Assembly (NCBI GenBank): GCA_021730945.1
Contig: JAKFYH010000040.1
Location: 1 to 64,000 of the forward strand
Source: Acidobacteriota bacterium
Lineage (GTDB): Bacteria > Acidobacteriota > Vicinamibacteria > Vicinamibacterales > UBA2999
Direction of reading: 5' to 3'
DNA: 64,000 nt
The translations under genes and the position numbers were made by a program. The stretch's first letter is position 1; the number at the start of each line of letters is the position of its first letter. Shown piece by piece: positions 30 to 2,905 of the stretch. Under the pieces are notes generated by a model that saw nothing but the letters and a program-made list of their open reading frames with translations, had not been told where the DNA came from and ran no database searches.

Positions 30-1475
30 CTAATACTTCGCCTGGCTTGGATCAACCTGATCGATCCAACCCAGGATGCCGCCGGTCAGGTTACGGACGT
101 TCGTAAACCCTTTAGAACGAAGGAGTTCCTGCGCCTTGGCGCTGCGCACTCCCGACTTGCACTGCGACACGATGGTCGCGTGCGGATCGAGCTCGACATA
201 GCGCTTGGGCAGGTCTCCCAACGGGATCAGGATCGAACCAGGAATCCGGTTGATCTGATACTCCTGTGGCTCTCGCACGTCCAGCACCACCACCTGGTCG
301 CCGCGGTCCAGTTCGACCTTCAGCTCTCGCGACGTGAGCGCGTCGGCAACCGTCACCGGCGCCTGGGCCGCGGCCACCTGGTGAGGCGCCACGCCGCAAA
401 ACTGCTCGTAGTCGATCAGCCGGGTCACCGTGGGATGGGTGCCGCACACCGGACAATCGGCATCCTTGCGCAGCTTCAATTCACGAAAGCGCATGCGCAG
501 CGCGTCGTAGATCATGAAGCGCCCGATCAGCCCCTCGCCGATTCCCAGGATCAACTTGATGGTCTCGGTCGCCTGGATGACTCCGATGATGCCGGGCAGC
601 ACGCCGAACACGCCGCCTTCCGCGCAGCTCGGCACCAGCCCGGGCGGCGGCGGTTCCGGATAGAGGCAGCGATAGCACGGGCCGTCCTTGGTCGCAAAGA
701 CCGACGCCTGCCCTTCGAAGCGAAAAATGCTGCCGTAGGCGTTGGGCTTGCCGCTCAGCACGCACGCGTCGTTCACCAGGTAGCGGGTCGGGAAGTTGTC
801 GGTGCCGTCAAGAATCACGTCGTACGGCGCAAACAGCCGCATCGCGTTCTCGGAGCTGAGCGCGGCATCGTAGGTCTCGACATGCACGTTGGGGTTGAGC
901 GCATTCAGCCGATCCTTCGCCGAATCGAGCTTGGGCCGGCCGACATCCGGCGTGCCATGCAACAACTGCCGCTGCAGGTTGCTGAAGTCGACGACGTCGA
1001 AGTCGACGATGCCGATGGTGCCGACCCCGGCGGCGGCGAGGTACATCGCCGCCGGCGAACCCAGGCCGCCGGCGCCGATGCACAACACCTTGGCGGCCTT
1101 GAGCCTGCGCTGCCCCTCGACGCCGACCTCGGGCATGATCAGGTGACGGCTGTAGCGCTTGATCTCGTCGCCCGACAGTTCGGGCAGCACGTCGGCGGCA
1201 GTACTGCCACCCGCCACCGACGGGATGATGCTCACCGTGTCGCCGGCCTTCACCGGTGTCTGCTCCTTCTGCAGATAGCGGATGTCATCGTCATTGAGAT
1301 AGACATTGACGAAGCTGCGCAGCTTGCCGTCGGCGGCATAAAGGTGCTGCTTGAGGCCGGCGTGACGGGTGATCAGGTTCTGCAGCAGTTCGCCGACCGT
1401 GGCGCCGTTCACCTCGACGGTGTCGAGCTTGTCGGTGAACGGGCGGAGCGGGGTTGGAATGAGGATTTTGATCAT
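30..1475 (-). CDS. Sulfur-carrier / E1-like activating enzyme / rhodanese fusion (CysO-MoeZ type)
   Basis: Three domains make a complete sulfur-transfer module in one 481-residue chain. Residues 1-90 are a ThiS/MoaD/CysO-like beta-grasp carrier ending in Gly89-Gly90, but the chain continues with Ser91 instead of stopping. Residues about 100-365 are a ThiF/MoeB adenylating domain with the nucleotide loop GAGGLG (134-139), the conserved thiol Cys294 in PSCAEGGV, and two zinc pairs, Cys267/Cys270 and Cys341/Cys344. Residues about 374-478 are a rhodanese domain with active loop CKSGVR (Cys439). Normally the carrier is separate and its free diglycine tail is adenylated and thiocarboxylated, so this carrier probably has to be cut free, plausibly by the JAMM protease encoded just upstream. 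The gene is last in a cysM-mec operon, which points to cysteine synthesis. Thiamin or molybdopterin supply is a weaker alternative. Confidence 0.9.
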   Translation of the reverse strand: MIKILIPTPLRPFTDKLDTVEVNGATVGELLQNLITRHAGLKQHLYAADGKLRSFVNVYLNDDDIRYLQKEQTPVKAGDTVSIIPSVAGGSTAADVLPELSGDEIKRYSRHLIMPEVGVEGQRRLKAAKVLCIGAGGLGSPAAMYLAAAGVGTIGIVDFDVVDFSNLQRQLLHGTPDVGRPKLDSAKDRLNALNPNVHVETYDAALSSENAMRLFAPYDVILDGTDNFPTRYLVNDACVLSGKPNAYGSIFRFEGQASVFATKDGPCYRCLYPEPPPPGLVPSCAEGGVFGVLPGIIGVIQATETIKLILGIGEGLIGRFMIYDALRMRFRELKLRKDADCPVCGTHPTVTRLIDYEQFCGVAPHQVAAAQAPVTVADALTSRELKVELDRGDQVVVLDVREPQEYQINRIPGSILIPLGDLPKRYVELDPHATIVSQCKSGVRSAKAQELLRSKGFTNVRNLTGGILGWIDQVDPSQAKY

Positions 1476-1476
1476 G

Positions 1477-1508
1477 ATTTGGTGATTTGGTGCGTTGGTG
1501 GTTTGGTG
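1477..1508. repeat. 8-bp tandem repeat replacing the ribosome-binding region
   Basis: Four imperfect 8-bp units (ATTTGGTG, ATTTGGTG, CGTTGGTG, GTTTGGTG on the plus strand) begin one base before the ATG of the sulfur-carrier fusion. On the coding strand the leader is CACCAAA-like and has no Shine-Dalgarno sequence. Confidence 0.65.
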
Positions 1509-1535
1509 ATGTGGGCTGCGGAATATGGTGATGGG

Positions 1536-1952
1536 TCAAACGGTGATGTGGACTGGCTCCTCATCGAACGCCGAACGATCGGCCTTCAGGCGCCACGAGG
1601 TGAGCAGCTTGTCTTGGCCGGCCATGATCGACACGATCACGTACGAGAACGACGGCCATGCGTGGTCGAGATCGTACTGCGACGGCCGCGCCGGGTGATC
1701 GGGATGCGAGTGGTAGAAGCCGAGCAGGTCAAGCCCGGTTGCGCGCGCCCGCTGCTCGGCCCCGCGATAGTCGTCTGGCCTCACCAGGAAGCGCCGGCGC
1801 GGGCCCTCTTCGGTAGTGTTCGCCAGCGGATACGCTTCGTGCACCGCGCCGTCGCGGCCGAGCAGGGCGCCGCAGCACTCGTGCGGAAAGGTCTCGCGCC
1901 CGTGGGCGCGAATGGCGGCGTCGGCCAATGGCCGCAAGGTGAGCCCGTCCAT
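1536..1952 (-). CDS. mec: JAMM/MPN+ metalloprotease, Mec family
   Basis: This 138-residue zinc protease carries the full JAMM signature: Glu25 in HECCG, then His81-Ser-His83-Pro, Ser91 and Asp94. In Mycobacterium the homologue Mec removes cysteine from the C-terminus of the carrier CysO after CysM has built it there; related JAMM enzymes trim residues after a diglycine. Here the gene lies between cysM, whose stop codon it overlaps by one base (TGATG), and the carrier-E1-rhodanese fusion. It could therefore both release finished cysteine and cut the fusion after Gly90. The first role follows from the family. The second is inference. The length is typical of the stand-alone bacterial family, with no added domains. 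Confidence 0.9.
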   Translation of the reverse strand: MDGLTLRPLADAAIRAHGRETFPHECCGALLGRDGAVHEAYPLANTTEEGPRRRFLVRPDDYRGAEQRARATGLDLLGFYHSHPDHPARPSQYDLDHAWPSFSYVIVSIMAGQDKLLTSWRLKADRSAFDEEPVHITV

Positions 1953-2905
1953 CAGTTGGTCCCGCAGATCGAGGCGCCTTCGGGGGGATTCTCCCAGAAC
2001 CGCTCCGACAAGTAGCGTTCGCCGCCATCACAAAACACCACCACGACCACCGCGCCCGATCGGGCCACCTTGAGGGCACCGGCCAGGTTGGCGCCGCTTG
2101 AAATCCCAACCAGCAATCCTTCTTCCTGCGCCAGGCGCCGCGTCATCTCGTAGGCCTCTTCGGTGCCCACCCGCACGTCCTCGTCGGCAAGTGACGCATC
2201 GTAGATGCCGGGCACGATGGCCGACTCCATATGCTTCAAACCCTCGAGCCCATGCAGCGGCGAATCTGGCTGCACCGAGGCCAGGACAATCTTCGGGTTG
2301 AACTCGCGCAAGCGCCGTCCGGTGCCCATGAACGTGCCGCTGGTGCCCAGCCCGGCGACAAAATGCGTGAGCCGCGCGCCGGCCTGCGCGATGATCTCCG
2401 GGCCCGTCGTGTCGTAGTGCGCCTGCCAGTTGAACGGGTTGTTGTACTGATCGGCGTAGAAATAGCGCTCGGGTGACGCGTCGTTCATTTGCTGCGCGGT
2501 GCGAATGGCGCCGTCAGAGCCTTCGAGAGGATTGGTAAAGATCAGCTCCGCGCCATAGGCGCGCAGAATGCGCTTGCGTTCCGGCGTCACGTTCTCCGGC
2601 ACGCACAAGGTGACGCGATAGCCGAGCGAGGCGCCGATCATCGCGTAGGCAATGCCGGTGTTGCCCGACGTGGCATCGAGGATGGTCCTGCCCGGCACGA
2701 GGGCTCCGGACGCGATGCCCTCCTGCACCATCCGCAGCGCAGGACGATCCTTCACGGACCCGCCGGGGTTCTGCCACTCTGCCTTGGCATACAACTCCAC
2801 CCCGGGCACGTCGCGCTCGATTCGGCGCAGGCGGACGAGCGCCGTCTCGCCGACCAGGTCGACGATCGACATGCTGGATTCACTCGCGCCGTTGGGATTC
2901 ACCAT
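1952..2905 (-). CDS. cysM: PLP-dependent cysteine synthase, CysM type
   Basis: Fold-type II PLP enzyme of 317 residues that makes cysteine from O-acetylserine or O-phosphoserine. The PLP lysine is Lys52 in PGGSVKDR, and the substrate loop is TSGNTG (79-84). Linkage to a JAMM protease and a ubiquitin-like carrier suggests that the sulfur donor is carrier thiocarboxylate rather than free sulfide, as shown for mycobacterial CysM with CysO. It is the first gene of the operon, and its stop overlaps the mec start. The chosen ATG gives a short extra N-terminus (MVNPNGASESS); Met12 is an alternative start. Neither has a good Shine-Dalgarno sequence. An AATTGG-TCT-CCAATT palindrome lies just upstream. 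Confidence 0.88.
   Translation of the reverse strand: MVNPNGASESSMSIVDLVGETALVRLRRIERDVPGVELYAKAEWQNPGGSVKDRPALRMVQEGIASGALVPGRTILDATSGNTGIAYAMIGASLGYRVTLCVPENVTPERKRILRAYGAELIFTNPLEGSDGAIRTAQQMNDASPERYFYADQYNNPFNWQAHYDTTGPEIIAQAGARLTHFVAGLGTSGTFMGTGRRLREFNPKIVLASVQPDSPLHGLEGLKHMESAIVPGIYDASLADEDVRVGTEEAYEMTRRLAQEEGLLVGISSGANLAGALKVARSGAVVVVVFCDGGERYLSERFWENPPEGASICGTN

Follow-up and report, generated by a model that had tools for sequence, protein, structure and literature searches.

A sulfur carrier fused to its E1 and a rhodanese in an Acidobacteriota bacterium, and the association of blocked carrier diglycines with JAMM proteases

Our analysis of a 64,000-nucleotide stretch of DNA from an Acidobacteriota bacterium (the window) showed that a CysO-like sulfur carrier, an E1-like adenylating enzyme and a rhodanese are encoded there as one chain in which the diglycine of the carrier is internal, and that sulfur carriers with a blocked diglycine are linked to the presence of a JAMM protease in the genomes of two phyla. 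The fusion is a real and well-conserved feature that the original prediction had read correctly in outline. We consider it probable that the protein is a precursor, cut after Gly90 by the adjacent JAMM, loaded with sulfur through its E1–rhodanese part, used by CysM and relieved of its cysteine by the JAMM. The features on which this reading is built are as follows.

30..1475, minus strand: carrier–E1–rhodanese fusion, 481 aa (open reading frame; Pfam ThiS, ThiF and Rhodanese; alignment to 29 fused homologues from the phylum)
1206..1475, minus strand: CysO-like beta-grasp sulfur carrier domain, residues 1–90 (Pfam ThiS; nearest solved chains 4n6e_B and 3dwg_C)
1206..1211, minus strand: codons of the internal diglycine Gly89-Gly90, with the predicted cut after Gly90 (sequence; kept in 64 of 64 fused loci)
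1182..1205, minus strand: linker, residues 91–98, Ser91 first (Ser91 codon 1203–1205; length and sequence variable among homologues)
447..1154, minus strand: E1-like adenylating domain of the ThiF/MoeB type, residues 108–343 (Pfam ThiF)
60..329, minus strand: rhodanese domain, residues 383–472 (Pfam Rhodanese; Cys439 invariant)
1536..1952, minus strand: JAMM/Prok-JAB metalloprotease, Mec-like, 138 aa (open reading frame; Pfam Prok-JAB; nearest solved chain 2kcq_A)
1952..2905, minus strand: CysM-type cysteine synthase, 317 aa (open reading frame; Pfam PALP; PDB search)

Pfam divided the single chain into ThiS (residues 4–90), ThiF (108–343) and Rhodanese (383–472), and together with the sequence it confirmed that Gly89-Gly90 is internal; the carrier part does not end in Gly-Gly as a gene, as Ser91 and the E1 domain come after Gly90. 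The window begins at the end of the contig, and the region downstream of the fusion gene lies beyond that edge. Alignment of 30 sequences showed that Cys267, Cys270, Cys284, Cys341 and Cys344 of the E1 part and Cys439 of the rhodanese are invariant, and that the diglycine was kept in 30/30 sequences while the linker drifted. A PDB search with the carrier domain gave 4n6e_B as the best match and 3dwg_C as the second, the latter match ending at the last residue of 3dwg_C; we take both chains to be CysO proteins, 3dwg_C being the mycobacterial one. The E1–rhodanese part has the domain architecture of MoeZ in Pfam, and the fusion scored 523.7 bits against the MoeZ model (curated cut-off 647), the top model being MoeB at 548.5 bits (cut-off 633). 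An AlphaFold2 model of the fusion, built on a shallow alignment of 30 sequences, had a mean pLDDT of 82.7 and a pTM of 0.59, with the carrier, E1 and rhodanese mostly confident and the relative placement of the domains unreliable. Residues 86–90 had pLDDT values below 50 in this model, and the diglycine stretch is probably flexible, as expected of a site accessible to a protease.

Gene mapping on the minus strand gave the order cysM-like gene (2905 to 1952), JAMM gene (1952 to 1536) and fusion gene (1475 to 30), with the stop codon of the cysM-like gene overlapping the JAMM start codon by one base. The JAMM protein scored 88.5 bits against the Prok-JAB model, and its open frame, Pfam assignment and motif positions (Glu25, His81-Ser-His83-Pro, Ser91 and Asp94, at the expected spacing) bear out the claim that the neighbouring gene carries a full Glu-HSHP-Ser-Asp motif. 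CysM/O-acetylserine sulfhydrylase B chains ranked above the mycobacterial chain as the best PDB matches of the CysM-type protein. The CysO-like carrier, the linked CysM-type synthase and the full-motif JAMM all support the proposed setting of a CysO/CysM/Mec-like cysteine pathway. The span 30–1952 covered by the original prediction takes in the fusion and the JAMM gene, and cysM lies just outside it.

Matches to the fusion at E up to 1e-40 were present in 237 of the 297 genomes of the phylum Acidobacteriota. A total of 121 loci were read, comprising the window and 120 loci picked by hand from the match list, mostly from the top down; 64 were fused and 57 unfused, a proportion that is not the frequency of the fusion in the phylum because of how the loci were picked. 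All 64 fused loci kept the diglycine, followed by Ala in 25, Ser in 22, Thr in 11 and Val in 6, with linker lengths ranging from 6 to 32 residues. A full-motif JAMM gene on the same strand within 500 bp accompanied 57 of these loci, L070 among them with the JAMM in the same frame, and a CysM-like gene was found somewhere in the stretch in 53. Among the seven fused loci with no local JAMM, six belonged to genomes that hold one elsewhere (76–95 bits), giving a JAMM in 63/64 fused genomes; the seventh, genome G140, had only a Prok-JAB match of 20.5 bits, and its locus sits on a contig of 3,752 bases, one of 650 listed for that genome. The JAMM neighbour, whose routine absence from homologues had been named as part of the grounds for refutation, was thus the rule, and the search that had been proposed for other internal-diglycine carrier–ThiF fusions with an adjacent JAMM was successful. 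Chance adjacency of the two genes was rejected on the same count of 57/64 loci.

The description of the arrangement as unusual for prokaryotes was not supported, as the fusion is common among the Acidobacteriota loci read and was also found in Gemmatimonadota, Thermoplasmata archaea, Verrucomicrobia, Elusimicrobia, a Myxococcales genome, Pseudomonas and others (named records, mostly metagenome assemblies). Variants of the architecture included locus L070, where JAMM, carrier, E1 and rhodanese form one open frame of 619 aa, and locus L199, where the order is carrier, rhodanese, E1. In a FastTree phylogeny of 197 E1–rhodanese sequences the fused or unfused state required 25 changes, at least 10 of them forced by starred branches, and 15 changes when only rows with a carrier were considered; three entries were called fused by eye, namely L316 and L344, whose divergent carriers were missed by the carrier model, and L354, which is split in two frames. 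Fused and unfused forms therefore interchange often on the E1 tree.

Among the 57 unfused loci, a same-strand carrier gene lay no more than 500 bp away in 35, and 22 had no such gene. Every separate carrier of the Acidobacteriota set with a JAMM gene in the stretch was capped (32/32), with 1–25 residues after a diglycine that was conserved in these split forms as in the fused ones. The three separate carriers with no JAMM in the stretch comprised two capped members (L101 and L150) and one exposed (L135), and in the genome of L101 a JAMM gene lies some 6 kb away from the carrier. In the loci from named records, which partly overlap the Acidobacteriota set, JAMM-containing stretches held 17 separate carriers, of which 14 were capped, the exposed ones being L310, L353 and L359. 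Second, exposed carriers were present in the stretches of fused loci L074, L077 and L123. Because split relatives beside a JAMM gene are capped too, blocking of the diglycine is not a side effect of fusion; diglycines at these Acidobacteriota loci usually carry a tail, of which the E1 is one form.

Caps at the JAMM/E1 loci were rich in cysteine (37 of 187 residues, in 19 of 32 caps). The corresponding counts were 8/137 residues and 6/27 caps for the remaining carriers, and 3/837 residues for the linkers of fused forms; related genomes weigh on these counts. A Gly-Gly-Cys end would be equal to the product-bound carrier, and a single reaction would both mature such a carrier and release the product.

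A role of JAMM as the cutter predicts that, in any carrier family, diglycines short of the C-terminus occur only in genomes with a JAMM, and this was tested on 110 ThiS-family carriers of Acidobacteriota read at the C-terminus among the matches listed, very few of them from E1 loci. The first 70 comprised 27 loci from the carrier search, the three of the window genome and 40 more of those listed, chosen at a stage when JAMM status had yet to be read; for the later 40, of which 24 came from JAMM-free genomes, the choice was made knowing JAMM status but blind to the C-terminus. Loci L188 and L191 (fused E1 loci, counted elsewhere) and the two carriers of genome G101 (weak JAMM match, both exposed) were left out. 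A genome was scored as JAMM-positive when its Prok-JAB match reached 60 bits or more, a threshold set after the gap in scores had been seen, and as JAMM-free where there was no match at E up to 1e-9 (Acidobacteriota) or none above 27 bits (Pseudomonadota).

Among the matches listed, the 70 carriers from 44 JAMM-positive Acidobacteriota genomes included 27 exposed, 27 with a short cap and 16 fused to a following domain, whereas all 38 carriers from 32 JAMM-free genomes were exposed. Capped or fused carriers thus made up 43/70 with a strong JAMM versus 0/38 without (Fisher p 9e-12), and the difference was maintained, among the same listed matches, when counted by genome (29/44 versus 0/32; p 3e-10) and by family (14/23 versus 0/17; p 4e-5). 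The partners of the 16 fused carriers were confirmed as MoaE in 10/10 tested and ThiG in 3/3 tested, and one was a carrier–rhodanese–E1 chain; the MoaE- or ThiG-like fusions L280 and L238 in this phylum and L419 in Pseudomonadota were classed without Pfam.

The same distribution was observed in Pseudomonadota, where 28 carriers were read in 16 genomes around a Pseudomonas, while eight listed places came with no locus to read (one in the centre genome, G299, and seven in the other genomes, four of these in JAMM-free ones). Blocked carriers amounted to 8/16 in JAMM-positive and 0/12 in JAMM-free genomes, and all eight JAMM-positive genomes held a capped or fused carrier. These were four ThiS-ThiG-like fusions (3/3 tested confirmed) and four short caps, each of the latter a single Cys. 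The link between blocked diglycines and JAMM is mostly in trans, because 41/43 blocked carriers in Acidobacteriota and 8/8 in Pseudomonadota (49/51 among the carriers read) are located apart from the JAMM gene, judging by contig or coordinate; only L199 and L225 adjoin one. In 14 named genomes chosen regardless of JAMM, 8 of the 30 carriers read were non-exposed, and every one of these came from the 13 that had a JAMM match. The association of JAMM with blocked diglycines is correlational, and its main caveat is that related genomes are not independent, though the pattern persists when families are counted and recurs in a second phylum.

The rule is one-way, because JAMM genomes also hold exposed carriers (27/70 among the matches listed, including the three of the window genome and the CysO-like carriers of L185–L187). 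The apparently new element is the rule, simple and falsifiable, that a JAMM is required wherever the diglycine is blocked; no statement of it was found in the literature searched, with most subscription journals outside its reach.

In the precursor model the uncut fusion would be inactive. Because E1 adenylation needs a free C-terminal carboxylate, the uncut protein would be unable to form a thiocarboxylate at Gly90, and this chemistry and the internal diglycine together support the earlier claim that Gly90 becomes exposed only if the carrier is cut. Cleavage after Gly90 by the adjacent JAMM would yield a mature CysO-like carrier ending in Gly-Gly and an E1–rhodanese enzyme of the MoeZ type. 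The E1 would adenylate the exposed glycine and the rhodanese persulfide would convert the adenylate to a thiocarboxylate, from which CysM would take the sulfur to form carrier-bound cysteine. The same JAMM would finally cut the Gly–Cys bond, releasing cysteine and recycling the carrier, so that one and the same cleavage, after the diglycine, would serve both to mature the carrier and to release the product. The cut itself, the cutting enzyme and the cysteine pathway are the parts of this model that we infer.

A JAMM cut after Gly90 is predicted as very likely, because capped and fused diglycines were read only in strong-JAMM genomes, and this distribution, with the linkage of the two genes, favours the JAMM as the cutter that had been proposed. 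JAMM need not be the sole cutter, however, because MoaX is processed in Mycobacterium smegmatis by a protease that its authors could not name (PMC4326299), nor does the diglycine motif alone fix the cut site, because HvJAMM1 is reported to cut linear SAMP1 fusions with no need for a diglycine (PMC8832034). The MoaX case lends some weight to an alternative in which another protease cuts after Gly90 and JAMM only releases cysteine from carrier–cysteine, as do loci L054, L058, L062 and L123, where no JAMM is next door even though the upstream side is well covered. The genomes of these four loci nevertheless hold a JAMM elsewhere, and among the carriers read, blocked carriers of the thiamine and molybdenum cofactor (Moco) types, whose pathways lack a carrier–cysteine step, also occurred only in JAMM genomes; we regard this alternative as unlikely.

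It is also conceivable, at a lower probability, that the fusion acts uncut, with the carrier as a vestigial or fixed regulatory domain and sulfur transferred through other carriers in trans. A fixed fusion would hold the carrier close to its own E1, and the genome does have three other carriers, all with exposed diglycines. These adjoin MoaE, an oxidoreductase-like gene (read as an aldehyde oxidoreductase) and, for the ThiS carrier, ThiG, and thus none is an evident stand-in for CysO. The retention of the diglycine throughout the fused loci and the aligned sequences beside a drifting linker, and the interchange of fused and split forms on the tree, likewise argue against an uncut role, which we consider quite improbable.

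Slightly less credible still is a ubiquitin-like protein-modifying system, in which the carrier would be conjugated to proteins and JAMM would be mainly a deconjugase. Archaeal SAMP1 and HvJAMM1 form such a reversible modification system (PMC4443979), and the fusion scored 55 bits against the SAMP1 model, slightly below its cut-off of 60. The CysM gene in 53/64 fused loci and the rhodanese in the same chain point instead to sulfur transfer, and the E1–E2 models of PADLOC match the E1 part only. Protein modification would be compatible with the precursor model. Judged on the fusion, JAMM and cysM genes, an anti-phage E1–E2 system was set aside as a separate candidate, since the PADLOC match (E up to 1e-10) covered fusion residues 104–275 only; at the same threshold PADLOC gave nothing for the JAMM, and Pfam detected no E2-like domain in these three genes. 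A sequencing or assembly artefact in which two genes were joined by a lost stop has next to no probability and is refuted for the family by the same architecture in 64/121 loci of the phylum and in other groups, although in genome G229 the carrier and E1 do share one frame with a single TGA between them.

The precursor model, which we prefer over these alternatives, has several known counterparts. In the CysO–CysM–Mec–MoeZ cysteine pathway of M. tuberculosis a carrier–cysteine is formed and a JAMM then releases the cysteine (PMC3227635); the window has the same components, namely a CysO-like carrier, a CysM-type synthase, a JAMM and an E1–rhodanese, but the mycobacterial pathway as described there has the carrier and E1 encoded by different genes, with Gly-Gly at the carrier's C-terminus, whereas here the diglycine is internal. 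Operons with ThiS/MoaD, E1-rhodanese, JAB and cysteine synthase genes, including those of Acidobacteria, were listed in 2006 (row 4c; PMC1779556), together with a prediction that JAB proteins cut carriers fused to other proteins; in that row the gene set is the same but the carrier is its own gene, and the prediction is given there without a genome-wide test. Ubl–E1 fusions were also described earlier (PMC2948915). The architecture is the same in the MoaD–MoeBR fusion of archaeal cluster 356.3, reported in 2024 as a possible transfer from Acidobacteria (PMC11237513), which likewise has carrier, E1 and rhodanese in one chain, and the passage on it draws no link to JAMM, cysM or capped split relatives. 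The architecture, the operon type and the idea of cutting are therefore already published, and the fusion is neither rare nor new in kind.

The QbsE carrier is capped. PtmS2 and PtmS3 have one or two residues after Gly-Gly, and the JAMM gene ptmS1 is needed where such capped carriers are used (PMC6006322). These carriers and QbsE resemble the window fusion in having a blocked diglycine and require a JAMM or protease, but their tail is a short cap and they serve secondary metabolism, whereas the tail of the window fusion is an enzyme domain. MoaX of M. tuberculosis is cut between Gly82 and Ser83, and the cut is needed (PMC4326299); DRJAMM cuts the MoaD-MoaE fusion of Deinococcus radiodurans (PMC8832034). 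In both, a carrier and a partner enzyme are linked at an internal diglycine, within Gly-Gly-Ser in MoaX, where the chain must be cut, as in the window fusion, but according to these accounts the partner is the acceptor MoaE, whereas here it is the carrier's own E1. The window and the other 63 fused loci share with these JAMM-processed precursors (MoaX, MoaD-MoaE, QbsE and PtmS) the residues after the diglycine and, in all but G140, a JAMM in the genome.

A wider interpretation, to which we give an even chance, is that JAMM matures all sulfur carriers of a genome (CysO-, MoaD- and ThiS-type) in trans. The presence of JAMM would then lift the constraint that carrier genes end in Gly-Gly, and carriers would be free to gain caps or to fuse to the next gene (E1, MoaE or ThiG). 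Such genomes would depend on JAMM for thiamine, Moco and cysteine, and Gly-Gly-Cys carriers would be born as the carrier–cysteine intermediate, their maturation then being the cycle's first turnover.

Should the rule hold, a single protease would account for scattered fusions (carrier–E1, MoaD-MoaE and ThiS-ThiG) as well as capped carriers, and sequence alone would predict which bacteria are unable to make thiamine, Moco or cysteine without JAMM. The 2006 JAB prediction for fused carriers would become testable by a single gene deletion. The system would also provide a simple bacterial parallel to the processing of ubiquitin precursors, in which a standing protease lets fusion genes evolve repeatedly.

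In the 4.7 Mb genome of the window the fusion was the only E1 of the MoeB/MoeZ type found, in addition to two weaker E1-like matches with less than 30% identity over a fragment. Because no second MoeB/ThiF-type E1 was found in this genome, the freed E1 may also serve the separate MoaD and ThiS carriers in trans.

A single open frame of 619 aa at locus L070 (5537-7393) was found to encode JAMM, carrier, E1 and rhodanese domains together, a chain that is possibly self-processing; a start codon may also lie inside the frame. One chain at locus L199 (319-1761) carried the domains in the order carrier, rhodanese and E1, which differs from carrier–E1–rhodanese and probably represents an independent fusion event, and a JAMM was located 25 bases away from its carrier domain. 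In the Pseudomonas kitaguniensis locus (L354), JAMM, carrier and the start of E1 occupied one frame and the remainder of E1 then continued in a different frame, indicating either a frameshift or two genes. Carrier and E1 were also fused at locus L123, but the rhodanese part had no match there; this fusion adjoined another carrier, whose diglycine is exposed, as well as two cysteine-synthase genes.

Carriers of the Acidobacteriota family f17 (L147, L141, L142, L146 and relatives) possessed cysteine-rich caps, the residues following the diglycine (e.g. CCCCCCL; SACCSCCPLL), with the E1 gene directly after the cap codons. These caps could mimic the carrier–cysteine intermediate or could instead form a stalling stretch that senses cysteine.

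Locus L225 encoded a MoaD-MoaE fusion with 24 bases between its carrier domain and a JAMM gene, and its genome (G009) possessed another JAMM at its own carrier–E1 locus. Additionally, contig 2 of the window's genome (G000) contained a 468-aa frame at about 178354-179223 (L005, L016) with weak matches to E1 and Prok-JAB, which is possibly a member of the E1-JAB systems.
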